This document shows, piece after piece, positions 1,811 through 22,594 of a DNA stretch of 39,304 bases; position 1 is the stretch's first letter; each line of letters begins with the position of its first letter. The translations under genes were made by a program, and so were the position numbers. Source of the DNA: an uncultured Candidatus Saccharibacteria bacterium. Lineage in GTDB: Bacteria > Patescibacteriota > Saccharimonadia > Saccharimonadales > Saccharimonadaceae. The stretch is taken from assembly GCA_947306585.1 (NCBI GenBank), contig CAMZGX010000003.1, positions 1 through 39,304 of the forward strand. The letters are read 5' to 3'. The notes under the pieces are model-generated. The model worked only from the letters and a program-made list of their open reading frames with translations. It did no database searches and was not told where the DNA came from.

Positions 1811-4533
1811 TACCAGCCTCCGCCGCCTCCGCCGCCGCCACCGCCGCCGGAGAATCCCCCTCCACCGCCGCCGGATGAGCCGGAGCTACTTGAGAAACCG
1901 CCAGAAGACCAGCCGCCGCTGCTTGATGATGAAGTATCAACTGGGCGGTAGGTTGCACTGTGCATGACTGAATTTAGAGCGGCATAGCTGAAGCCGGCAT
2001 CATACCAGGTTGGGGCGGTAATGTTTTCGAGTTGATAATATTTCTCGAGTTCTTTCATCCAAGATTTTTCAAGACCGAAAAGTGCTGCGTATGGTAATAA
2101 TTTTTCGTAAAGTTTAACGATTCCCTCTTCGCTAGTATCAACGCCTTCGACGCTTTGAAGGAACTTAAGACGATCGGCTTCAGCCATTTTGATGTAGAGT
2201 TTAAGACCATCAGTGTAGCGTGAAATCTCAAGACCACGTAAGGTACGAAGCTTGTATTTTTCGGTCTGGATTTGAAGTAATGGTGCAAAGGTTGTAATTG
2301 CGATTGCGAGTACGACCATAATTGGGATTAGCCAGCGGCCTTCGAAAATAGCGTATTGAGTAAACTTGGTGGTCGACATGTAGATGATGACGATACTTGT
2401 GGCAAGGGTAGCGAAGATTTGGACACCAAAGTAAATACCAACAACAATACCGATGCCTTTGAAAAATTTGGTAGTTGAATTATCTTTGAGGCGCTTAGAA
2501 TCTTTCTTGTCGTTTTTTTCGAGAAGTTCTGCGCTTTTTAGAGCGTGCTTGACGTGAAGATCGTAGTTATCAAAAGCATCTTCAAGTTTACTTGAATAAC
2601 CGTGCTGTTTAATCTCGATTTCTTCATCACTTGGCTGATCAATGCGCTTGCCGCCATTCAAGATAGCAAGTAAATCTTTTTGCTCGAGTGAAAGATTATT
2701 AGTGTCGATGACTTTGAAGAACCATTTATAGCCACGAGAAAGGAAGCCTGTTTTTTGTTCTTTTCTGAGCTCAATCTTTTTATTGATGATCAATTCAAGC
2801 ATGGTTGCGACTTTGAGGTTCTTGATTGGCTGGAGATAGTTCCGGCCAATTTCAGCAACCGTAAAGTCCTTGATTGGAGCGTATTGTGGTACGATTGGAA
2901 GATCTTTATAGTACTTAATTTTGTCAGCAACTTTACGATATGATTTGTAGTATGCAAAAACAGAAATGGCAATAGCAGTAGTTATGAAAATACCAAAAAT
3001 GTGCCAGATGAGATAGTTACGATTTGGCTCAGAAATAGTGAAAGTGCCGTCTTTGAAATAAACGACGAAAGCCATGGAATTTGAGCTTGAAATATTGCCC
3101 ATGACATAGGTATAGCCGTCTTCGGTTTCGGTGATTTCGCAACGATTAACATCATAGCTAAGAGCGCCACCTTCGAAACAAATAGTTTTAGCGTTGTGTG
3201 TTTCGTCAGCTTGATCAATGAAGGTGCCGGTCTCGATTTCAGAAATTAAATCTTCGTCGATATGAAGAGTGATTTTGGCGTTTGAAACGTCATATGCGAA
3301 ATTATTACCAAATGCATCGAATGATAATTGCTGGAGTCCTTCTGGGTCTTTGATTTGTTCAATTAAATCCTCCAAAGTGTATTCAAAAGTGAGTTTGTGT
3401 TCACCATGCATATAACCATCGTTTTCGTCGTGAATGGTGACATAGAAGAAACCATTATCGTTGGTTGTGATGTAATATGGCTCAATTACCCTGCCGTCCA
3501 TAGTGACGGTGACATCAAGTTTTTCTTGGCTTGGTGTAATAAAGCGGTTTTTGTCGGCGTTTACGAATGGGATGTAGCGTGAAAAGCCGCGATCTATATT
3601 GAGGGTTGGGAAAAGTGCAGTGAAATCTTCTTTAACTTTTAGGATGGCCTTGCCGTTTTCGTCGCGTGACAAATAATAATCAATTTTGGCATCTTTAAAA
3701 GTAAGATCTTTAGCGAAGTTGCTTTCTGGTACGACGAAGGTTTTGTTATTAAAATTCAAAACAAAAGTCATGTTTTCGCCGCCAGCAAGATTGGTGGACT
3801 TATACTGAATGCCATCATCAAGATCATTGATTTCACAGCGATCTTGATTTGAACTACCGTAAACACCAACATAACACCAAGTAGCTAATTGCTCAGAGGT
3901 CTTATTGTTTTTATGAATAGTAGTTTTTGATTTGTAGTTTGATGTATAAGAAATTTCGCGGTCTTTTAATATAGCGCTTTTGATTTCTTCATCCATGTGA
4001 AGATTAACGGTAACTTTTTCGAAATTCTGTGACCAACCGGTTCCATTCGAATCCCAATAAAGCTCTTGGTACGGATCGGTAGAATATCTTGATTCATCAA
4101 ACTCGGTAATGACGTTCTTGAATTTATATTTTAGAACGTAGACTTGCTCGCCTTTAACGTATTCATCAACACTGCCAATGCGGACGGTGAAATTATTGCT
4201 GCCGGTTTTGACGGTGTATGGTTCGGTATTGCCGTTTCTAGTGACTTCAATATTTAAATGATTGGCACTTTCCATAGTCAAGTTAGTGTCGTTTTGGTTT
4301 AAGAAAGGAATGATACGTTCGATGCCGTGGTTTTGGTTGTAGTTTGGAAATTCGGCGGTAAAGGTTTCGACGACTTCCATTTCACTGGTGTTTGCGGAAG
4401 TTTTGTGAAGACTATAGTCGATAGTTAAATCTTTAAAATGAAAACTGTTGGCGTCAGCAAAAACTGGAGCAACTGGAAGAATACTGGAAGCTAGAAGTAG
4501 CACCGTAAAAATAAGACTATGAAGTTTTTTCAT
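1810..4533 (-). CDS. DUF2207-type membrane protein with two tandem N-terminal domains and a Ser/Gly-rich C-terminus
   Basis: Signal peptide; two similar extracellular modules (FKDLTIDYSL...ERIIPF and FKDAKIDYYL...SRYIPF); TM segments; ends GGGGGGFSGGGGGGGGGGGW, as in DUF2207 proteins. Confidence 0.8.
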   Translation of the reverse strand: MKKLHSLIFTVLLLASSILPVAPVFADANSFHFKDLTIDYSLHKTSANTSEMEVVETFTAEFPNYNQNHGIERIIPFLNQNDTNLTMESANHLNIEVTRNGNTEPYTVKTGSNNFTVRIGSVDEYVKGEQVYVLKYKFKNVITEFDESRYSTDPYQELYWDSNGTGWSQNFEKVTVNLHMDEEIKSAILKDREISYTSNYKSKTTIHKNNKTSEQLATWCYVGVYGSSNQDRCEINDLDDGIQYKSTNLAGGENMTFVLNFNNKTFVVPESNFAKDLTFKDAKIDYYLSRDENGKAILKVKEDFTALFPTLNIDRGFSRYIPFVNADKNRFITPSQEKLDVTVTMDGRVIEPYYITTNDNGFFYVTIHDENDGYMHGEHKLTFEYTLEDLIEQIKDPEGLQQLSFDAFGNNFAYDVSNAKITLHIDEDLISEIETGTFIDQADETHNAKTICFEGGALSYDVNRCEITETEDGYTYVMGNISSSNSMAFVVYFKDGTFTISEPNRNYLIWHIFGIFITTAIAISVFAYYKSYRKVADKIKYYKDLPIVPQYAPIKDFTVAEIGRNYLQPIKNLKVATMLELIINKKIELRKEQKTGFLSRGYKWFFKVIDTNNLSLEQKDLLAILNGGKRIDQPSDEEIEIKQHGYSSKLEDAFDNYDLHVKHALKSAELLEKNDKKDSKRLKDNSTTKFFKGIGIVVGIYFGVQIFATLATSIVIIYMSTTKFTQYAIFEGRWLIPIMVVLAIAITTFAPLLQIQTEKYKLRTLRGLEISRYTDGLKLYIKMAEADRLKFLQSVEGVDTSEEGIVKLYEKLLPYAALFGLEKSWMKELEKYYQLENITAPTWYDAGFSYAALNSVMHSATYRPVDTSSSSSGGWSSGGFSSSSGSSGGGGGGFSGGGGGGGGGGGW

Positions 4534-4560
4534 AGTCTTATTATATCACGATTATAGTGA

Positions 4561-5493
4561 TTATGCTTCAGCAGTTGCTTCGTTAATTGCAGCTTTAATT
4601 GCGTTGATTGACTGTTGAAGTTTGATTCCCTCATCTTCGGTAGTTTTTACTTCGAGACGATCGATTACACCGTCGCGACCGATGACTGATGGCCAACCAA
4701 AGAAGGTATCAGTGAAGGCATCATAAGTTGAAACTGGCATGACACGACGTTCGTCGAAAAGAATGTTGTTGACGATGTCGGTTACGCATGAGCCGATACC
4801 ATAATAAGTTGCGCCTTTGCGGTTGATGATTTCGTAAGCGACGTTTTTAGTGTCTTCGGAAATTTGAGCTTGTTCTTCTGGGGTGAACATGCGATTAAGT
4901 GGCATGCCGCCAAGATCGCTAGTTGACCAAAGTGTGAATTCGGTATCACCATGTTCGCCGACTTGGTAAGCGTGGACGGACTTTGGTGAAACGTTGAGTT
5001 TCTCGGAAATCTTGAAGCGGAGACGTGCTGAATCGAGTACGGTTCCAGAACCAATGATTTGTTCAGTTGGGAGTCCAGAATATTTCCAGACGAGATAAGT
5101 CATGACGTCCATTGGGTTTGAAACGACGACAAAGATGCCGTTGAAGCCAGCTTTCATGATTGGCTCAACGATGCCTTGCATGATGCTTGCGTTCTTCTGG
5201 AGAAGTTGCATACGAGTCTCGCCACCTTTAGCTTGTGGGATGCCAGCAGTAATGATAATGACATCACAATCGCCTGCATCTTTTTCGTAAGTACCAGAAT
5301 GAATGTTGATGAAGGTTGGGCTAACTGCGAGGGTATCGCGAAGATCCATTGCTTCACCTTCTGCGTCTTCTTCATTAATATCAACAAGGACGAGTTCGTT
5401 GATTGGAGTTTTGCTGGTGACCATACAGTAGCCAATACTTGCACCGACGTTGCCTGTACCAACAATCATAACTTTTATGTTATCTTTTTGCAT
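4561..5493 (-). CDS. ldh: L-lactate dehydrogenase
   Basis: MIVGTGNVGASIGY, ITAGIPQAKGGETRMQLLQKN, VVSNPMDVMTYLVWKYSG, GEHGDTEF. Confidence 0.93.
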   Translation of the reverse strand: MQKDNIKVMIVGTGNVGASIGYCMVTSKTPINELVLVDINEEDAEGEAMDLRDTLAVSPTFINIHSGTYEKDAGDCDVIIITAGIPQAKGGETRMQLLQKNASIMQGIVEPIMKAGFNGIFVVVSNPMDVMTYLVWKYSGLPTEQIIGSGTVLDSARLRFKISEKLNVSPKSVHAYQVGEHGDTEFTLWSTSDLGGMPLNRMFTPEEQAQISEDTKNVAYEIINRKGATYYGIGSCVTDIVNNILFDERRVMPVSTYDAFTDTFFGWPSVIGRDGVIDRLEVKTTEDEGIKLQQSINAIKAAINEATAEA

Positions 5494-5518
5494 TTTTAAT
5501 CCTTATAGTTCTTATGGT

Positions 5519-6301
5519 TTAATTATACCACAAAGCGGATTGAGTAGCCTCAAAAGATTTACCTGGATTCCAGAGTTCGAGTGCGGCAACTTTTGAGGCG
5601 AGGTTGCCAACAAACAAAGCGATTGGTGTGTAGTCGGTTTTGTCAATTGAAGTTGTGATGACATTACCATTATTTGCTACGATAATTTTTTCTTGATGAA
5701 AAGTGAGAATGGTGACTGGATAGCTCAAGGTGAATTTGTGTAAAGTCTCGACGATTGGCATGAGCGGCGATGATAACATGATCATTTTTGGATAAAGCAA
5801 GCTACGGAAAAGTTTTTGAAGTTGAGGCATGGTAGCGACGAGAGTAATATTTCCCTTTTCGATAAATTCTTCAGCTGAATCTGCAACTGAATCGATCGCA
5901 TCGCGTACTAAAACTACTGGTTTGATAGTTTCTTTTAAGGCATTTGAAAGCGCGACGGATGTAGCGGAATTTTTTGAAAAATCACCAGAAAGTAAAGTAA
6001 TGTCGGCATCATCGATTGCAAACTTTAATTCATTAGACTTATCAAAGCTACCAGATTCGGTGCTAGGTGCAAAATTAATACCGGGAACTGGTGGGACTTT
6101 AGAACGGAGTGCGTCTGGAAGCAATAAACGAACTTCTTTTAACGGTAAAGAATTTAAATATTCAGCTTGTTTAATTTCGGTTGAAAAACTATTGGCGTTT
6201 CCACCAATAATTTGAATGACTCCAGTTTTTTGTTCTGGCACATTCCAGAAAATATTTGGATCAATTGCTTCGTCGAGTTTTTGCCAATAATCTAAATTCA
6301 T
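5519..6301 (-). CDS. Hypothetical protein, possibly a divergent ribokinase-fold/NnrD-like NAD(P)HX dehydratase
   Basis: IIGGNANSFSTEI start and LLSGDFSKNSATSV look like YjeF C-terminal/ribokinase-like folds; overlaps the xth start. Confidence 0.45.
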   Translation of the reverse strand: MNLDYWQKLDEAIDPNIFWNVPEQKTGVIQIIGGNANSFSTEIKQAEYLNSLPLKEVRLLLPDALRSKVPPVPGINFAPSTESGSFDKSNELKFAIDDADITLLSGDFSKNSATSVALSNALKETIKPVVLVRDAIDSVADSAEEFIEKGNITLVATMPQLQKLFRSLLYPKMIMLSSPLMPIVETLHKFTLSYPVTILTFHQEKIIVANNGNVITTSIDKTDYTPIALFVGNLASKVAALELWNPGKSFEATQSALWYN

Positions 6302-7098
6302 TTGTCCTCCAATTCGATGCTAATTGGGCAGTGGTCTGAACCAAAAATACTTTCATAAATTTCGGCAGATTTGAGTTTTGGCTGGAGTGACTTTGAAATG
6401 AAGAAATAATCGATGCGCCAGCCAACATTGTTTGCGCGAGCATTGCCCCAGTGAGTCCACCAAGTGTAACGTTCGGCAGTTGGATTGAGTTCGCGGAAAG
6501 TATCAATTAATCCTGCAGACAAATAATTATCGATGCCCTTGCGTTCTTCGATGGTAAAGCCGGCATTTTTCATGTTGTCTTTTGGACGAGCTAAATCGAT
6601 TTCTTCGTGAGCAGCATTAAAATCACCACAAATCACAACTGGTTTTTCTTGTTGTAATAATTCGAGGTATTTTTTGAGCTCAGGATCCCAAAGTTTTTCG
6701 CGAAGTTGAAGACGCTCAAGGCTGCGCTTAGAATTTGGAACATAAACGGTAATAATAAAGTAGTTTTTGAGCTCCAAAGTTAGAATGCGACCTTCATTCA
6801 ATGGATCGCCAAATACGTCTTTTTCGATTTTTAATTCTGGGTATTTTTCGAAATCGTGATATTCATTTAAAACTTTGATGCCGTTTCTGACAAAAATGGC
6901 AGTGCCAGCATAACCAGGACGTTCGGCAGAGTTCCAATATTCAACATAATCGCCAAAGTCGACTTCAACTTGATCACGTTTGGCTTTAGTTTCTTGAAGA
7001 CATAAAATATCCGGGTTTTCGTAAGCTAGGAATCTTTCTAAATCACCTTTTTTGAGGACTGCACGAATTCCGTTTACGTTCCAAGAATAAAGTCTCAT
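6298..7098 (-). CDS. xth: Exodeoxyribonuclease III / AP endonuclease
   Basis: MRLYSWNVNGIRAVLKKG, LCLQETKAK, CGDFNAAHEEIDLA, GWRIDYFFIS, GSDHCPI. Confidence 0.95.
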   Translation of the reverse strand: MRLYSWNVNGIRAVLKKGDLERFLAYENPDILCLQETKAKRDQVEVDFGDYVEYWNSAERPGYAGTAIFVRNGIKVLNEYHDFEKYPELKIEKDVFGDPLNEGRILTLELKNYFIITVYVPNSKRSLERLQLREKLWDPELKKYLELLQQEKPVVICGDFNAAHEEIDLARPKDNMKNAGFTIEERKGIDNYLSAGLIDTFRELNPTAERYTWWTHWGNARANNVGWRIDYFFISKSLQPKLKSAEIYESIFGSDHCPISIELEDK

Positions 7099-7532
7099 TA
7101 ATATAATCTCCTAGAATGTTCGCGATCTAAATCTTTTTGCTTGATGGATTGACGTTTGTCGTATTTTTTCTTACCTTCAGCAATTGCGATATCGAGTTTA
7201 ATGTAGCGTGAACCGCCATAAAGTTTGGTTGGGACGATGGTCATGCCATCTTGTTTGGCGCGTTCCATGGAATGGATTTGTTTCTTAGTAGCAAGTAATT
7301 TGATGTTGCGGGCAGTTTCTGGACCTAAGGTTAAGTTGTTGAGCCAGAGCTCGCCGTTTCTAAGCGTAACAAATGAACCCTTGAGTTGAACGTGGTGATC
7401 ACGGATTAAACGGACTTCTGGTCCATTTAGGCTCATGCCACATTTGATAGCTTCGCCAAGTTTGTAATCAAAAGCAGCGCGACGGTTAACGGTCACGGTT
7501 GATGCTGGCTTTTTTGATTTTTTTCCACTCAT
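7098..7532 (-). CDS. smpB: SsrA-binding protein SmpB
   Basis: VNRRAAFDYKLGEAIKCGMSLNGPEVRLIR, GSFVTLRNGELWLNN, PTKLY, GKKKYDKRQSIKQKDLDRE. Confidence 0.95.
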   Translation of the reverse strand: MSGKKSKKPASTVTVNRRAAFDYKLGEAIKCGMSLNGPEVRLIRDHHVQLKGSFVTLRNGELWLNNLTLGPETARNIKLLATKKQIHSMERAKQDGMTIVPTKLYGGSRYIKLDIAIAEGKKKYDKRQSIKQKDLDREHSRRLY

Positions 7533-7551
7533 AATCTATAATAATTATAAC

Positions 7552-8841
7552 ATGAAAATTGCAATTGCTTCGGACATCTATTATCCGCAGATTAACGGTG
7601 TTGCTGTGTTTGCGCACAATCTTGCTAATGGTCTTGCTAAAGCTGGCCATGAGGTGATCGTGATCGCCCCATCGTTCAACGGAAAATACCATGTTGATAT
7701 CGACAAAGAAACAAAAGTTAAAACCTATCATTTAACATCTATTCGCTTCCCATTTTATCCAGACCAAATTAATAAAGTTCCGGATAAAAGAAAAGTTTTA
7801 GGTCTTCCTGTTCCCCGCTTAGCTTATCGCCACGGCATTTGGTGGAGTGTAAACCCATGGACAGAAGTAAAACATATTTTGAATGAGTTTAAACCAGACG
7901 TAATTCACCTTCAGACTGCGGAGACTATTGCACTTGCAGTGATGAGTTATGTTCGTAAATATGACGTGCCTTTGGTTTCAACTGGTCACGCTTATCCGGA
8001 TAATGTAACTGGTCAATTCAAACTTTTGAAGCCTAAGATGATCAAGAAGCCAACTGATGCAGTTTTGCGTGCTTATATGGCAAGTTTCTTAAAACATGCT
8101 GAGTATGCTACTATGCCAACTGAGATGGCAATTGGTGACTTGGTACCAAAGAATCGTCGTCGTTTTAAGGTGACAGTTGAGGCTTTGTCAAACGGGGTTG
8201 ATCTTTCTGAGTATTATCCAGCAAAACCAGACGCAGAAGTTTTGAAGAAATATAATATTTCAGCAAACGCAAAGAAACGTGTACTTTATATCGGCCGTGT
8301 TGATCCAGAAAAATCAATTTCAAAAATTATTTTGGCATTTGAAAAAACTTTGAAAAAAGTTCCAGATGCCGAGATGTTAATTGTTGGTGACGGCATCGAT
8401 GCCAACCATTTGAAAAAGTTAGTGGCGGAGCGTAAGCTCGAAGCTAAAGTTCAATTTGCTGGAAAAATTTTGCCACCAGATCTTGTTGAAGTTTATCGTA
8501 CTGGTACTTTATTTGCGACTGCTTCTGAAACTGAAACACAAGGTATCGTTTTGATTGAAGCTGCAGCAACTGGTTTACCATTAATTGCTGTCGATAAAGG
8601 CGCAGTTGGCGAACTTTGTCAGAATGGCAAGAACGGCGAGCTTTGTCAGCCAGGTGATATTGATGGCATCGCCAACGCGATGGTAAAAATCTTAAGTGAT
8701 AAAGATTTACAAAAGAAATATTCTGAAGCTTCAATTGAAGTTTCAAAGAAACACGATCTAAATCGTACTTTGAAACGCTTTGAAGAAATTTACCACGAAG
8801 CTATTAAATTAAAATCTGAACATAATTCAGTTGAAGAATAA
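7552..8841 (+). CDS. GT4-family glycosyltransferase
   Basis: MKIAIASDIYYPQINGVAVFAHNLANGLAKAGHEV, LSNGVDLSEY, YIGRVDPEKSI, EAAATGLPLIAV. Confidence 0.92.
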   Translation: MKIAIASDIYYPQINGVAVFAHNLANGLAKAGHEVIVIAPSFNGKYHVDIDKETKVKTYHLTSIRFPFYPDQINKVPDKRKVLGLPVPRLAYRHGIWWSVNPWTEVKHILNEFKPDVIHLQTAETIALAVMSYVRKYDVPLVSTGHAYPDNVTGQFKLLKPKMIKKPTDAVLRAYMASFLKHAEYATMPTEMAIGDLVPKNRRRFKVTVEALSNGVDLSEYYPAKPDAEVLKKYNISANAKKRVLYIGRVDPEKSISKIILAFEKTLKKVPDAEMLIVGDGIDANHLKKLVAERKLEAKVQFAGKILPPDLVEVYRTGTLFATASETETQGIVLIEAAATGLPLIAVDKGAVGELCQNGKNGELCQPGDIDGIANAMVKILSDKDLQKKYSEASIEVSKKHDLNRTLKRFEEIYHEAIKLKSEHNSVEE

Positions 8842-9354: not shown

Positions 9355-11046
9355 ATGAGATTGCAAAGGGCTAGTATTTTTAGTGGTACCCTGAAGTACA
9401 CACCGATTGGACTAGCTTTTTTCACGCTCTCTTTTACCGTTGTTTCTTTATTTAATCCAATTAATCCGTCTAATGCAGATGATTTAACTGCAACTAGCGG
9501 AGCATCAATTTACTCAGCTTCGATCTCAAGTAGTAGCGGAGCTGAGATTATTGTTGATCCTACTTCTGAGCAAAAGATTTTTACTGGCAAGAATGAAATT
9601 TCCTATACTAATTCTTGTCCATATGGTTTTACGATTACACTTTCTTCAAGCAGTGAAGAAACTGCTTTGACGCGCACGGGGAGCGATTCCCTCACCAAAA
9701 CAATTCCTTCTATCGATACTGGGACTACGCTGTTGGATAATACATGGGGCTTTACTACGAGTAGTAGTGAGAATGCCTTTAGCCCCATACCTCCACTAGC
9801 GTCCCCAGTCGTACTTTTAGAGACGTCGGCAGCTACTAATGCACCTACGACTCTTACTGTGACTTATGGACTTAAGACTGATAATGAAATGCCTTCGGGC
9901 GTGTATACGAATGATATTGTTTATACGGTAATGGTGAAGCCGCAGTGTATGGGTTACACTTTAAAATGGGATCTTGATGGTGGCGATGACAAAGCTAATT
10001 CATATGAAGAAGCCCATGTTGATTATGGCACGACATTTGATCTTAGTGGCTATGCGCCAGTGAAAGAAGGTTATACTTTTGCTGGTTGGCAAACAGCTGA
10101 TGCATCGTTTATTGATTTAGCCGATATTACAGCGGTTGATGTTAATCCGAATAATAGCGATGTGGTGACGATGAAAGCGGTCTGGGCAAAGACGCTTCAT
10201 CAAATGTCGACCATGCAAGAAATGACTAGTTTGTCTTGTAAACTAACTACCACTCCAAATGTAGCTGCAACGACTTTTGACTGGGATGGTTCGCATCGTG
10301 GCGACAAGAATTATGTGCCAAGAAAAAGTTTGAAAGATACGCGTGATAATAATTATTATCTCGTTTCTAAGCTAGCGGATGGTAATTGTTGGATGTCCCA
10401 AAACCTTGCGCTTGAGCTTAGTAGCACCGAGGAGGTTGAGGCTTCAAATAATGATGGCACAACAATGATGGTTACTCCGGGAAATAGTACTCAACAAGGT
10501 ACGTTTGAAATTTGGGAACAGTACGATGATGTCTGGCATAGTTACCATCCGTATAATAGCGCTAGCTACTTGCAAGGTGGTACGAAGGTAGCTAGTACTC
10601 CAACTGGAAGTGGCGTAGAATACGATTGGGAGAAAACCGGAAATTATTATAACTGGCATGCGGCAACAGCTGGTACTGGTTTAAGCGTCATGTCTACGCC
10701 TAACGCAAGTGCTTCAATTTGTCCAAAAGGCTGGAGATTGCCAACTGATAATTCGAGCATCGCAGCTCAGAGGCAGTATGGATACTTGTTGAAGTCGATC
10801 TATAACTTATCTGGTACGGCTGGATCTACGAAAATGCTTCAGGCTCCATTAAACTTTAATATGGCTGGTTACTATAAATATAATACTGGCGAAGTAACGG
10901 CTCCCGGTTCGTATGGGAACTATATGATGGGTACTTCTATCGATAATATCTTTGCGATTCGTTTGAGTTTTACTCCGTCCGAGATTAACCCGTATACTCA
11001 AAGTACTAAGGGGCAAGGCTTTACGGTTCGTTGTATTGCAATCTGA
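9355..11046 (+). CDS. Secreted FISUMP-domain protein with an InlB-type (Listeria-Bacteroides) repeat
   Basis: Signal/TM N-terminus; YGTTFDLSGYAPVKEGYTFAGWQ repeat; DGNCWMSQNL, SICPKGWRLP, GFTVRCIAI FISUMP signatures. Confidence 0.85.
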   Translation: MRLQRASIFSGTLKYTPIGLAFFTLSFTVVSLFNPINPSNADDLTATSGASIYSASISSSSGAEIIVDPTSEQKIFTGKNEISYTNSCPYGFTITLSSSSEETALTRTGSDSLTKTIPSIDTGTTLLDNTWGFTTSSSENAFSPIPPLASPVVLLETSAATNAPTTLTVTYGLKTDNEMPSGVYTNDIVYTVMVKPQCMGYTLKWDLDGGDDKANSYEEAHVDYGTTFDLSGYAPVKEGYTFAGWQTADASFIDLADITAVDVNPNNSDVVTMKAVWAKTLHQMSTMQEMTSLSCKLTTTPNVAATTFDWDGSHRGDKNYVPRKSLKDTRDNNYYLVSKLADGNCWMSQNLALELSSTEEVEASNNDGTTMMVTPGNSTQQGTFEIWEQYDDVWHSYHPYNSASYLQGGTKVASTPTGSGVEYDWEKTGNYYNWHAATAGTGLSVMSTPNASASICPKGWRLPTDNSSIAAQRQYGYLLKSIYNLSGTAGSTKMLQAPLNFNMAGYYKYNTGEVTAPGSYGNYMMGTSIDNIFAIRLSFTPSEINPYTQSTKGQGFTVRCIAI

Positions 11047-17036: not shown

Positions 17037-18248
17037 TTATGCGAAGTCCAAAGAGACGAGGTTTTCGATATGTGGAGTGTGTGGGAAGAAGTTGAAAGCT
17101 TCAACAGATTTGAGTTTTGCGCCAGCAGAAATGAGGAGTTCGATGTCGCGAACCTGGGTGATTGGATTACATGAAAGATAGATGATTTTCTTTGGCTTTA
17201 CTTCAATTAATTTGTCGATTAATTTCTTGTCACAGCCAGCGCGTGGTGGATCAAGGATGACGACAGAATCTGGTGCAATATATTCAAGTGCTTCTTCAGA
17301 TTTAGCGAGCACTGGAGTTGCGGTCTCGATATCTTTACAGTTTGCTTCGAGTTCTTTGTAGGCGGATTTGTCGACTTCGACGAGGGTTAATTCTTTCTCC
17401 CCGGCAGTGCTGAGACCGATAGTGCCGACACCAGAATAAAGATCGATGACCTTTTTAGTTTCGGTGGTGTCTAAGATTTCTTTGATACGAGTGAGAGCGA
17501 TTTCATAGATCGGAAGGTTGATCTGGAAGAAGCCATTTGGTGAGTAAGAATAGGTTTTTCCAAGAATCTCATCGGTTAAGTTATTGAAAACTGGGTGAGG
17601 TTTACGTTTTTCAAAAAGGCCACCTTCGACGTCGCCGTTTTGGTTACAACGAAGAAGAAGCGAAGAATAATTCTTAGCTTCATCACCTGACTCATTGAGT
17701 TGCTTAATAATAGCTTCAGCTTTCTCGAAAATTTCTGCGCGTTCAATTGAGCTGGTTTTGATTGGCATTTTTGAATGAGAACCACGAGGATGGATTGCTA
17801 ATTCGATTTTTTCAGATGCAAAATTATAATAAAGCGAATATTCCATCTTGTTGCGATAGTGCCAGGTATCTGGGCTTTGATGGAAAGCGACTTCGTCTTG
17901 CCAAAGATTTCTAAAGAGTTCTTTAATGACGGCAGTTTTTTGATCGGCTTCATAGTCGTCAGTCATGATTTGCCATGGTGAAGTTGAAAGGTATTGCTCG
18001 TCCTTTGGCTCGGTACGATATTCAGAAGTTTTTACGAAATCTTTAGCAATACCTTCGTCGTAGCTAGACTTAGATTTGATCTGAATGAAAGATTTAACTT
18101 CTTCGTTTGGAAGAGTGTTCCAAAGGAAGATTTTTTTACCATCAGAAAGGGTGCCGATTCCCTGTCCGGTTGGAGTTAATTTCTCAATTATAAGTGGTGA
18201 ATCGAGAATAATTTCTTTTTGTTTAAACTTTTTTCTTCGTCTTGGCAT
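17037..18248 (-). CDS. TrmA/RumA-family RNA (uracil-5-)-methyltransferase
   Basis: KLTPTGQGIGTLSDGKKIF TRAM-like start, NGFFQINLPIYE, VIDLYSGVGTIGL, VILDPPRAGCDKK, YLSCNP. Start moved from 18293 to 18248 because TAAAAT lies 7 nt before the MPRRRKKF ATG. Confidence 0.9.
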   Translation of the reverse strand: MPRRRKKFKQKEIILDSPLIIEKLTPTGQGIGTLSDGKKIFLWNTLPNEEVKSFIQIKSKSSYDEGIAKDFVKTSEYRTEPKDEQYLSTSPWQIMTDDYEADQKTAVIKELFRNLWQDEVAFHQSPDTWHYRNKMEYSLYYNFASEKIELAIHPRGSHSKMPIKTSSIERAEIFEKAEAIIKQLNESGDEAKNYSSLLLRCNQNGDVEGGLFEKRKPHPVFNNLTDEILGKTYSYSPNGFFQINLPIYEIALTRIKEILDTTETKKVIDLYSGVGTIGLSTAGEKELTLVEVDKSAYKELEANCKDIETATPVLAKSEEALEYIAPDSVVILDPPRAGCDKKLIDKLIEVKPKKIIYLSCNPITQVRDIELLISAGAKLKSVEAFNFFPHTPHIENLVSLDFA

Positions 18249-18286
18249 TTTATATATTTTAACATATTTTTTGCGTTTTTCAAAAA

Positions 18287-18316
18287 TTGACATGATGAAA
18301 AATCTTATGCTAAACT
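18287..18316 (+). promoter_or_regulatory. Promoter of FISUMP paralog 2
   Basis: TTGACA (18287-18292), 18-nt spacer ending TGC, TAAACT (18311-18316). Confidence 0.6.
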
Positions 18317-18344
18317 AGAATTAGATTTAGGTTTTTATACTGCT

Positions 18345-19784
18345 ATGATTTATAAAGGTAGAATAAGTCCAATATTAAACTATGTTGGGATTTTTGCGCT
18401 CTCAATGTTTGTGGCAGCCTCTGCAGTTTATATTTATTCTCCAGTAGTTGGCTCACATGCGGATGAAACTGGGACCAGAAGTGTGACATCAACTATTCCT
18501 ACTGTTTCACTTAGTCTTGATATGTCGGAAATGGATTTTGAATTTACGCCAACTAGTTCAGGTGTGTTTGACTCGAAAACTGTGACAGTGACAGCAAATA
18601 CTGATAGTACTGGTGGTTATGAATTGTCCTTATTTGCGGATGGTGATTCGGCGGATATGTTGGCAGCTGGCTCAGACATGACGATTGCATCAGATTTTAC
18701 TGGTACAGTAACGAGTGTTACAATGGCGGCGAATAAATGGGGATACTCGACTGATGGTACGAATTTCTCGAAGGTTCCAGTCCAAGGTAGCGGGGCGATT
18801 ATTAGAGATCTAGACCACACTCCGTCTTCTTCTGAGCAAATCAATACAGTAACAATCGGCATGAAAGTCAACTCGACTCTTAAAACTGGTATCTATAAAA
18901 AAGATGTAGTATTTTCTTTACTTGCGCACGAACCGCTAATAACGATTCATGAGATTAGCACGATGCAAGAAATGACCAGTACGATCTGTGCAAATACTAA
19001 AACACCAACAACATCTGCTACGGCAATCGACTGGGATGGTTCGCATCGTGATGACGTGAATTATGTTCAAAGAGCAAGGCTAGAGGACACGCGTGACGGT
19101 AACTATTATTTAGTTTCGAAGCTTGCGGATGGCAACTGTTGGATGTCTCAGAGCCTTGCGCTTGATCTCACGGCAAATACAGCAATCGTCGCATCAACAA
19201 CGGCTGGTGATACAATAAGCGTAACTCCAAATAATACAACTCAAACCACAACTGGTACAGCCTGGGCTGAAGCAGATGATAACTGGCGAAGCTACAAGCC
19301 ACAGTCTAGCGAAGCATACTATCAATCCGGCACCGATAAATCCAGTTCCCCATCAGGTAGTGGCGTAACTTATGATTGGGAAAAAGCCGGAAACTATTAC
19401 AACTGGTATGCTGCAACAGCAGGCACCGGCACTAGTTCAATGACTGACTCAGATGCTACGGCAAGCATTTGTCCAAAAGGCTGGAGGCTTCCATCTAATA
19501 CTGGTACAAAGAGTTATTATAATCTCATTACTACGACCTATGATCTCACGTCATCCACCGATGGTACTCTCACGCTTCGTGCTAATCCTCTCAATTTCAA
19601 TTTGTCCGGCGTCTACGGCAGTGGTGCTATGGGCTATCAGGGCTCGAACGGCGTCTATTGGTCTAGTACGGCCTACTCACCTGCTACGCTCGCGCGCGCC
19701 CTGGAAATCACTACGTCGCCCGTCTACCCTCAGGGCCGCGGCCCCAAGGGCTACGGGGTCTCCGTACGCTGTGTGGCAATTTAG
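18345..19784 (+). CDS. Secreted FISUMP-domain protein, paralog 2, with compositionally distinct 3' end
   Basis: Signal/TM N-terminus nearly matching paralog 3 (LNYVGIFALSMFVAASAVYIYSPVVGSHADETG); DGNCWMSQSL, SICPKGWRLP, GVYWSSTAYSP, SVRCVAI. Confidence 0.88.
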   Translation: MIYKGRISPILNYVGIFALSMFVAASAVYIYSPVVGSHADETGTRSVTSTIPTVSLSLDMSEMDFEFTPTSSGVFDSKTVTVTANTDSTGGYELSLFADGDSADMLAAGSDMTIASDFTGTVTSVTMAANKWGYSTDGTNFSKVPVQGSGAIIRDLDHTPSSSEQINTVTIGMKVNSTLKTGIYKKDVVFSLLAHEPLITIHEISTMQEMTSTICANTKTPTTSATAIDWDGSHRDDVNYVQRARLEDTRDGNYYLVSKLADGNCWMSQSLALDLTANTAIVASTTAGDTISVTPNNTTQTTTGTAWAEADDNWRSYKPQSSEAYYQSGTDKSSSPSGSGVTYDWEKAGNYYNWYAATAGTGTSSMTDSDATASICPKGWRLPSNTGTKSYYNLITTTYDLTSSTDGTLTLRANPLNFNLSGVYGSGAMGYQGSNGVYWSSTAYSPATLARALEITTSPVYPQGRGPKGYGVSVRCVAI

Positions 19785-19799
19785 TTTGACAAACTTAAA

Positions 19800-19897
19800 A
19801 CGCTATAAAAAGGCGGCGTTATGGCACAACAGGTGTTACCGATGGAGCTGATTCTAACCGGAACCGTGGTTATTCAATTCGTTGCGTTGCGATTTAA
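19800..19897 (+). pseudogene. Residual 3' tail of a FISUMP gene
   Basis: In-frame ...GTTGVTDGADSNRNRGYSIRCVAI* at 19823-19897 lacks a gene body; GGTTATTCAATTCGTTGCGTTGCGATTTAA is nearly identical to the 3' end of paralog 3. Confidence 0.65.
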
Positions 19898-19949
19898 AAA
19901 AACTTATGTTAAGATCTAAATAGGTTTGGATCTAACGTAGGTTTTTGAT

Positions 19950-21407
19950 ATGATCTGTAAGAATAAAACGATAGGCTATGCAAAATCTTTAAACCACGTT
20001 GGTCTTTTTGCGCTTTCAATGTTTGTGACAGCTTCGGCGGTCTATATCTATTCTCCAGTGATTGGTTCGCATGCAGATGAGACTGGTGGATCGGCTGGTA
20101 CTACGCTTTCGATGAGTTTAAGTGACTCTGAACTTGGAATTGAGTTTACTCCAACCGAGGTGGGCGTATTTGATTCAAGCGCAGTAACTATAACAATTAA
20201 TACAGATAGTACTGGTGGTTATGAATTATCCTTTTCTTCGGACAGTGATACTGCGGACATGGTAGCAGCTGGTTCAGATATGGTAATTGCATCAGATTTT
20301 GATGGCACCGTAACAAGCGCTACGATGGCAGCAAATAAATGGGGCTATTCAACTAATGGTATAAGCTTCTCAAAAATTCCGGTGCTTGGCAGCGAGGCAG
20401 TCATCCGAGATCTAGATCATGCTCCATCTTCGGCTGAGCAAGCTAATGTTGTTACAATTGGTATAAAAGTCGATAATTCTTTGAAGTCCGGTATCTATAA
20501 AAGAGATGTGATCTTCTCTGCTTTGGCGCATGAGCCAAGAGATACGAGAAATATCTTTGATATTACTGAAATGCAAGAAATGACGTCGGCAATTTGTAAA
20601 AATACCACTACTCCACTTGCAAGCGCAACTCAATTTGACTATGGTAATACTCATGCTGGCGACAGAAGCTATGTACCAAGGACAACATTAGAAGATACAC
20701 GTGATGGAACTATGTATCTTGTTTCTAAGCTTGCTGATGGTAACTGTTGGATGAGTCAAAACTTGGAACTTGATCTTACGAAGGATGTACCAATTGAGGC
20801 GTCAACCATTAATGGCTCAACTATTCAAGTTACGCCAACATCTTCTACTCAAGTTTCAACTAAAACTGCACAGACTGGGGCTTCAGCACCTTGGGCAAGT
20901 TCTGGCACAGGATGGTATAGTATGAGACCATATACGGACATAAGTTATCTTCAAGGCGGTATAACTCCATCTAGTGCGGCAAGTGGCAGCGGAATTCAGT
21001 ATAACTGGGAAAAGACCGGTAATTATTATAACTGGTATGCCGCTACGGCTGGTAGTGGTGCAGATTCAGCTGAAACCGGCATAGCTGCTATCTCATTATG
21101 TCCTAAGGGTTGGAGATTGCCTGCGGGAACTGGCACTAAGAGTTACGCTATTTTAATGACACTTTATAGTTTGACTGGTACATCTGATTCGACGCCGATT
21201 AGATCTGACCCGCTTAACTTTGTATTCCCTAGCTCGGTCAATTATACTAATGGCGAAATCATTGCTAATGAGATTGGTGCAAAAGGTTTTTATAGGACAC
21301 TACAAGACGCTAAGACACTTTCTATTACTCAAACTTCAGTGACCGCTAATGCTGGCGTGTTGTTCAGAGAATATTTCGGCTATTCGATTCGTTGCGTTGC
21401 GATTTAA
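19950..21407 (+). CDS. Secreted FISUMP-domain protein, paralog 3
   Basis: LNHVGLFALSMFVTASAVYIYSPVIGSHADETG; DGNCWMSQNL, SLCPKGWRLP, GYSIRCVAI. Confidence 0.88.
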   Translation: MICKNKTIGYAKSLNHVGLFALSMFVTASAVYIYSPVIGSHADETGGSAGTTLSMSLSDSELGIEFTPTEVGVFDSSAVTITINTDSTGGYELSFSSDSDTADMVAAGSDMVIASDFDGTVTSATMAANKWGYSTNGISFSKIPVLGSEAVIRDLDHAPSSAEQANVVTIGIKVDNSLKSGIYKRDVIFSALAHEPRDTRNIFDITEMQEMTSAICKNTTTPLASATQFDYGNTHAGDRSYVPRTTLEDTRDGTMYLVSKLADGNCWMSQNLELDLTKDVPIEASTINGSTIQVTPTSSTQVSTKTAQTGASAPWASSGTGWYSMRPYTDISYLQGGITPSSAASGSGIQYNWEKTGNYYNWYAATAGSGADSAETGIAAISLCPKGWRLPAGTGTKSYAILMTLYSLTGTSDSTPIRSDPLNFVFPSSVNYTNGEIIANEIGAKGFYRTLQDAKTLSITQTSVTANAGVLFREYFGYSIRCVAI

Positions 21408-21445
21408 TTCTTGTGTTTTTGAAAAAGCCTGCTAGTATGTAGGCG

Positions 21446-22594
21446 ATGAAAAATGTTTTTAGAAAAGAAAACTTTTTGATCTTTATATCTATCTTTATCT
21501 TTTTCTATGCGCTGATTCTAAGTCTCTTCTTTCCTGTTCAGAGTGATAAAAAAGAATATAAATCTCAGATTCAAGAAACCGGGTTAAGAGCGGATTTTAA
21601 AACCGCAACCGAAAAATATATTTCAAGTGAAGTTTCGGGTCTGGCTTTTGGCTATCTTCTTGGTGATAAAGATGCACTGCCACCTGGGATGGATAATAAA
21701 ATGAAAGCGATTGGTATGGCGCATATTATCGTGGTTTCCGGGACACACCTTTCGATTATTATTGGCGCTTCAAGAAAGTTATTTGGTCGGATTTCACGAA
21801 TAGTGGCAGTATATGGCTCGATCTTTTTGCTAGCTGGTTATGTAATATTAATTGGTTTTACGCCTTCGATTATCCGGGCGTCATTTGTGGCGATATTGTC
21901 ACTTTTTGCGTGGTATTTTGGTCGTGAACAACGACCAATGCGGACGGTGATTTTGACTCTAGGTTTTTGTTTGAGCGTTAACCCGTATTTTTTAACTAAC
22001 GTTTCGTTTCAGCTCTCGATGCTGGCTTATTCGGGCGTAGTTTTGATAATGCCGCTGCTTGCTCGATATTTTTATGGTCTAGAGAAGCCAGGAGCGGTCG
22101 GTTCGCTGGTTTTAGCTTCGCTGTCGGCAATTATCGCATGCTTGCCGATTCAGTTGTATTATTTTGGCTCACTAAATTTGATTGCGGTGTTTGCGAATCT
22201 TTTAATTTTACCAACCATTCCCTACGCGATGGGGTTCTCGTTTTTGACTGGCATACTGGCGCTTTTAAACCTCGATTTTCTGGCGACGGGAACGGGTTGG
22301 CTAGCGGAGCAGATTTTAAAGTACCACGTTTATATTGTGAATTTACTGGAAGAGAAAACGGAGTTTTATTTTGAGTTTCCAAAAAACGAGCCAGTGTGGC
22401 TCGCTTTATATGTGGTGATAATTATTTTAATAATCTTCGCGGTACATCAGGATATCAAAGTAGGCAAAGGCGATACCAGTGACAACAATGATTCCCATTA
22501 CTTGTTCGGAGTTGATAACATTCAGGATGTCGGTAGAGAGGCTGTCGAGTGGGATGAAATAAGAGATACACCAGGAACAGATCGAAACAAGTAA
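21446..22594 (+). CDS. comEC: ComEC/Rec2-family competence protein (competence domain only)
   Basis: GLLLGDKDALPPGMDNKMKAIGMAHIIVVSGTHLSII-like core, GFTPSIIRASFVAILSLFAWYFGR, NPYFLTNVSFQLSMLAYSGVVL; overlaps the convergent gene by 168 nt. Confidence 0.88.
   Translation: MKNVFRKENFLIFISIFIFFYALILSLFFPVQSDKKEYKSQIQETGLRADFKTATEKYISSEVSGLAFGYLLGDKDALPPGMDNKMKAIGMAHIIVVSGTHLSIIIGASRKLFGRISRIVAVYGSIFLLAGYVILIGFTPSIIRASFVAILSLFAWYFGREQRPMRTVILTLGFCLSVNPYFLTNVSFQLSMLAYSGVVLIMPLLARYFYGLEKPGAVGSLVLASLSAIIACLPIQLYYFGSLNLIAVFANLLILPTIPYAMGFSFLTGILALLNLDFLATGTGWLAEQILKYHVYIVNLLEEKTEFYFEFPKNEPVWLALYVVIIILIIFAVHQDIKVGKGDTSDNNDSHYLFGVDNIQDVGREAVEWDEIRDTPGTDRNK

Follow-up and report, generated by a model that had tools for sequence, protein, structure and literature searches.

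The 3' end of a FISUMP-domain surface protein gene from an uncultured Saccharibacteria bacterium (positions 19599-19784) is very probably the variable region (VR) of a diversity-generating retroelement (DGR) target whose VR-bearing FISUMP block was probably recombined later onto the gene from a paralog like the one on contig C16 of the same genome. The sequence analysed, here called the window, is a stretch of 39,304 nucleotides that forms contig C3 of a 709-kb draft assembled in 55 contigs and estimated to be 81% complete, in which about 20 FISUMP genes are encoded. An earlier note on this DNA had read the gene end as a DGR variable region acted on by a reverse transcriptase (RT) and template located outside the window. 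The first half of that reading is supported by differences at template adenines in comparison with the relative G034, by the codon-position pattern in comparison with C16, and by the complete FISUMP DGRs of the same genus; the second half is not borne out for this genome, as neither an RT nor a template was found in the 81%-complete draft. The features discussed are as follows.

18345-19784, + strand: chimeric gene for a FISUMP-domain surface protein of 479 aa.
18345-19120, + strand: 5' part of that gene, mostly 60-80% identical to the tandem paralog at 19950-21407 and just 42-73% identical to the C16 paralog.
19125-19598, + strand: FISUMP block preceding the VR, 98-100% identical to the C16 paralog to about 19394 and 78-85% beyond.
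19599-19784, + strand: very probable VR, GC-rich, A-poor and NNC-rich, differing from a related template mainly at template adenines.
19785-19820, + strand: 3' flank of the VR, similar in part to the C16 flank, with a weak 5-bp stem.
19823-19897, + strand: orphan FISUMP 3' end (YGTTGVTDGADSNRNRGYSIRCVAI, then a stop codon) without a start, the relic of a former 3' end.
19950-21407, + strand: tandem FISUMP paralog with an ordinary AT-rich 3' end, used as a control and not a VR.
9355-11046, + strand: additional FISUMP paralog with an ordinary 3' end, also a control and not a VR.

Membership of the gene at 18345-19784 in the FISUMP family (TIGR02145/PF09603) is confirmed by matches of 49.4 bits to TIGR02145 (cut-off 41.65) and 39.5 bits to PF09603 (cut-off 33.9). 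The 479-aa protein consists of a membrane helix (residues 9-31), a beta-sandwich (54-194) and the FISUMP domain (about 205-479), and the segment at 19599-19784 finishes on the stop codon of the gene, so that the VR occupies its 3' end. The composition of this end agrees with what had been counted by hand in the earlier note, that is, about 63% GC and 15% A. The recomputed values are 62.8% GC and 15.2% A for 19621-19784, and 63.1% GC and 15.3% A for 19609-19784. The sharp contrast with the rest of the gene and with the 3' ends of the two paralogs also holds, the portion ahead of 19599 having 43.4% GC and 29.7% A, and the GC3 being 0.72 in the segment against 0.34 in the remainder of the gene and an ordinary 0.38 and 0.33 at the paralog ends. 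NNC codons, likewise noticed earlier, make up 46% of the final 61 codons and 17% of the remaining codons of the gene. The 176 nt from 19601 reach 64.2% GC, the highest value of any stretch of that length in the 39 kb, with a Gly-rich reading frame at 1777-1825 as the sole near rival. The natural left edge of the segment lies at about 19599, a little to the left of the 19609 given before.

A FISUMP gene on contig C16 has the same GC-rich end and scaffold (VR at about C16:11301-11490, 79% identical to the window segment), and the distribution of differences between the two genes changes abruptly where the VR begins. Counted by codon position (first/second/third), the differences within the VR number 20/13/3, while in the 68 codons upstream of it they are 8/4/25 (p = 1.5e-7 against the VR) and in the 90 codons before those 0/0/1; the differences in the 78-85% tract after about 19394 are mostly at third positions. 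Third-position divergence drops from 25/68 upstream to 3/59 in the VR, with the switch at about 19599 (p = 1e-5). The third base is kept in 22 of the 25 codons that differ between the two VRs, and 17 of these codons are NNC in both. This codon-position pattern is not given by drift or ordinary selection, but it is given when a single template, its AAC codons randomised, is written over both gene ends. As the C3 and C16 VRs are near-identical at third positions, the template that they shared would have existed well after their flanks diverged.

A template carrying the same scaffold is present in G034, which has two DGRs and whose ComEC is the most similar among the relatives (61%). The template repeat of the first bears the window scaffold, and that DGR is complete on contig C2 (locus L083):

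4422-6419: FISUMP target gene.
6590-7456: open reading frame of 288 aa between target and RT.
7458-8576: RT.
8637-8821, - strand: template repeat.

When this template is compared with its own variable region, 19/54 adenines and 1/131 other bases differ. The window VR was compared with the same template, which comes from a relative of the same genus and another species and not from the window genome, and 32/53 template adenines and 23/129 other bases were changed (p = 3.6e-8); the nearest template is that of another species, and 23 non-adenine mismatches persist. Between the window and C16 VRs, 26/53 of the adenine sites of the G034 template differ and 11/129 of the other sites (p = 4.8e-9). 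Species divergence alone does not produce an adenine preference, since a comparison of the G034 and G101 templates with each other gave 12/56 adenines and 26/132 other bases (p = 0.47). The AT-rich FISUMP paralogs of the window genome, used as controls, had no adenine bias (p 0.08-0.98). The window VR lacks two codons that C16 and both templates possess (a 6-nt deletion), and one of its codons, GAA, ends in a base other than C, which points to some drift since the last overwrite. A 7-bp stem-loop follows the C16 VR and merely a 5-bp stem follows that of the window.

The genome also has a third VR, at the end of a gene on C17, that fits the second template of G034 (31/58 adenines against 17/113 other bases, p = 2.4e-7):

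G000:C17:13146-15335 (locus L035): open frame of 730 codons with the VR of the second template type at its 3' end.

RVT_1 matches were found in 23 same-genus genomes in a search of 60 relatives, and most of the RT open frames inspected carry a DGR-type IGNxxSQ motif together with YVDD. Near these RTs are genes for FISUMP targets, together with template repeats that are A-rich and code for asparagine. Complete DGRs (RT with IGNLTSQ/YVDD, template repeat and FISUMP target) occur in many same-genus genomes. Summed over 21 template/variable pairs, 411/1165 template adenines were changed compared with 40/3433 other bases. A profile of 15 members built from same-genus DGR RTs detected a DGR-type RT in 96 of the 174 same-genus genomes examined. 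NCBIfam and PADLOC do not label the RT as DGR, and the assignment is based on its IGNLTSQ motif, on the pairing of templates with variable regions and on the FISUMP genes nearby. The 288-aa frame of G034 (L083:6590-7456) has no Pfam or NCBIfam family and is possibly a DGR accessory protein. In G102 (L191:7895-8451), two template-like A-rich FISUMP ends stand in tandem and adjoin one RT.

A search of the whole genome for a near-copy of the segment and for a DGR-type RT had been suggested in the earlier note. Queried with the DNA of the window VR and with a degenerate pattern allowing up to 3 mismatches, the 81%-complete draft returned solely the VRs of C3 and C16 and a short stretch of C17. These are variable copies, and no template repeat was recovered from the draft; the same DNA query does retrieve templates in other genomes, for example G101 and G034. 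The search for the RT returned nothing from the draft, either with PF00078 or with the 15-member profile, and no homologue of the open frame between target and RT in G034 was found there. Because 19% of the genome is unaccounted for, the missing RT and template do not decide between a DGR that is remote or unassembled and one that was lost.

The analysis adds to the VR itself that the gene is a chimera, with its displaced old 3' end directly downstream. Compared with its tandem neighbour in 60-nt blocks, the gene is mostly 60-80% identical over its first half and mostly 37-57% in the later part; with C16, identity rises abruptly at around 19120, from about 0.7 to 0.98-1.00. The relic at 19823-19897 lies immediately beyond the VR and its flank, and its last 30 nt share 93% identity with the end of 19950-21407. 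The simplest history would be that the gene formerly ended like its neighbour and that a C16-like gene donated the FISUMP block and the VR, pushing out the old end. The tract of 98-100% identity followed by one of 78-85% implies at least one later gene conversion. A comparable orphan FISUMP end of 26 codons is seen in G185 (G185:C2:39732-39809, locus L237).

The FISUMP pair (18345-21407) lies between genes named by inspection as RlmD-type and ComEC-type (region 17037-22594). These flanking genes adjoin without a FISUMP gene in G034, G188, G101, G087, G027 and G185, and in a seventh relative, G155, ComEC alone was recognised. Since the flanks adjoin in six relatives, the gene pair is probably an insertion of the window lineage.

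We propose that the RT of a DGR would copy the template-repeat RNA and misincorporate at adenines, mostly those of AAC codons, and that the cDNA would overwrite the end of a gene for a FISUMP surface protein. The outcome would be a fixed scaffold carrying NNC codons in which the first two bases are random. Recombination with a C16-like paralog would then have brought the variable FISUMP block into the window gene and pushed out the 3' end already there, which would survive as the relic. That overwriting preceded recombination, and that a DGR wrote the window copy in this lineage, is what we infer from these comparisons.

Two accounts of the present state of the system are held nearly equal; they differ only in that state, and in both the segment is a DGR VR. 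According to the first, which stands at close to an even chance, the DGR was lost from the lineage and the VRs are frozen ex-variants, which an enlarged FISUMP family retains as fixed members. In favour of such a loss, no RT or accessory gene was found in the draft, and G185 (97% complete, 10 contigs) is also without an RT while its FISUMP ends show GC-rich third positions and a template-adenine bias. Same-genus genomes without an RT are also richer in FISUMP paralogs: at a completeness of at least 90%, the median is 22 per genome compared with 10 in RT-bearing genomes (p = 4e-5), a comparison that is uncorrected for phylogeny, includes templates among the matches counted and scores at most 18 first-look candidates per genome. 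What speaks against this account is the near-identity of the third positions in the C3 and C16 VRs, as it suggests overwriting that was recent relative to the flanks.

The same near-identity, set against flanks that differ at 25/68 third positions, is an argument for the second account, which we place somewhat below an even chance and in which both VRs, on C3 and C16, are written in trans by a complete DGR lying in sequence that the draft lacks. The draft is just 81% complete and divided among 55 contigs, the RTs of many relatives sit close to contig ends, and remote targets diversified in trans are known in Thiohalocapsa (PMC10907252) and Trichodesmium (PMC8867640). This account needs no fewer than two types of template (A and B), however, and the draft would have to lack both. 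In addition, the C17 gene with the third VR runs on into sequence 92% identical to the C33 locus of G188, which has no RT, leading to an rpsO-like gene, and the window VR has its 6-nt deletion and weaker downstream stem.

Intact transfer of the segment from a high-GC organism would suit its GC content and GC3, but it is highly improbable and was rejected, as the closest scaffolds are in the same genome and genus, the differences track template adenines, and the segment has no match in phage records or viral contigs. Surface-exposed paralogs often evolve fast, so that a binding loop shaped by ordinary diversifying selection or by codon bias, with no retroelement, might be considered. That explanation is just as improbable: the third base is common to nearly all of the differing codons and most of these are NNC in both copies, the codon-position pattern switches sharply at about 19599, a relative has a matching template repeat adjoining an RT, and the template comparison contradicts it.

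The full-length protein was modelled at a pLDDT of 85.9 as a membrane helix, a beta sandwich and the FISUMP domain. Its fold search matched solely fimbrial-type sandwiches, the beta sandwich having a weak likeness to fimbrial subunits and TasA, with low TM-scores and an E of 2e-3 at best. The FISUMP domain alone (window 18942-19781) was modelled at a pLDDT of 94.9 and matched no PDB or viral structure at E <= 0.001, C-type lectins included. By inspection, the two helices followed by strands across the VR would be compatible with a C-type-lectin fold. The models suggest a membrane-anchored binder with a diversified tip, and the varied face may bind a ligand on a partner cell, a competitor or a phage.

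For the genus as a whole, we tentatively suggest, as a possibility that is rather unlikely at present, that the DGR supplies variants and is not a permanent editor, with newly varied FISUMP blocks recombining onto other paralogs and displacing tails such as the one at 19823-19897, and with lineages that afterwards lose the RT keeping a large, fixed repertoire of surface binders. If it is true that RT-less species retain ex-VRs in this way, the long-term fate of DGR diversity could be tested across the species of one genus. The window gene offers a concrete case of a DGR-diversified domain grafted onto another gene. With it, the Saccharibacteria, which live as epibionts and rely on recognition of partner cells, gain examples of variable regions that are remote or orphaned.

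It is already documented that FISUMP proteins are DGR targets and that CPR bacteria use DGRs; the least expected findings were the grafting, with the relic beside it, and the larger number of FISUMP paralogs in RT-less genomes. The G034 DGR shares its FISUMP scaffold with the window at the nucleotide level, with the difference that its target is beside the RT while that of the window has no such neighbour, neither an RT nor a template having been found in the draft. Targets located away from their RT have been described (PMC10907252, PMC8867640). In Thiohalocapsa PB-PSB1 (PMC10907252), as in the window, a VR is found at a locus without a complete DGR; there, RTs and templates are elsewhere in the genome and diversification is seen in reads, neither of which is established for the window genome. 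Roux et al. (PMC8144416) reported an enrichment of DGRs in CPR bacteria and a Patescibacteria RT clade (clade 2), and the window case is likewise a cellular DGR target of a CPR bacterium; by its own statement that survey would not detect targets distant from the RT, and RT-anchored surveys overlook targets such as this one. FISUMP (Fib_succ_major) domains were reported as DGR targets in human microbiomes (PMC4159848), where the example is a lipoprotein with an Mfa2 domain, while the window protein is membrane-anchored, comes from Saccharibacteria and belongs to a family of about 20 paralogs; in both, the diversified part is the C-terminal FISUMP domain.
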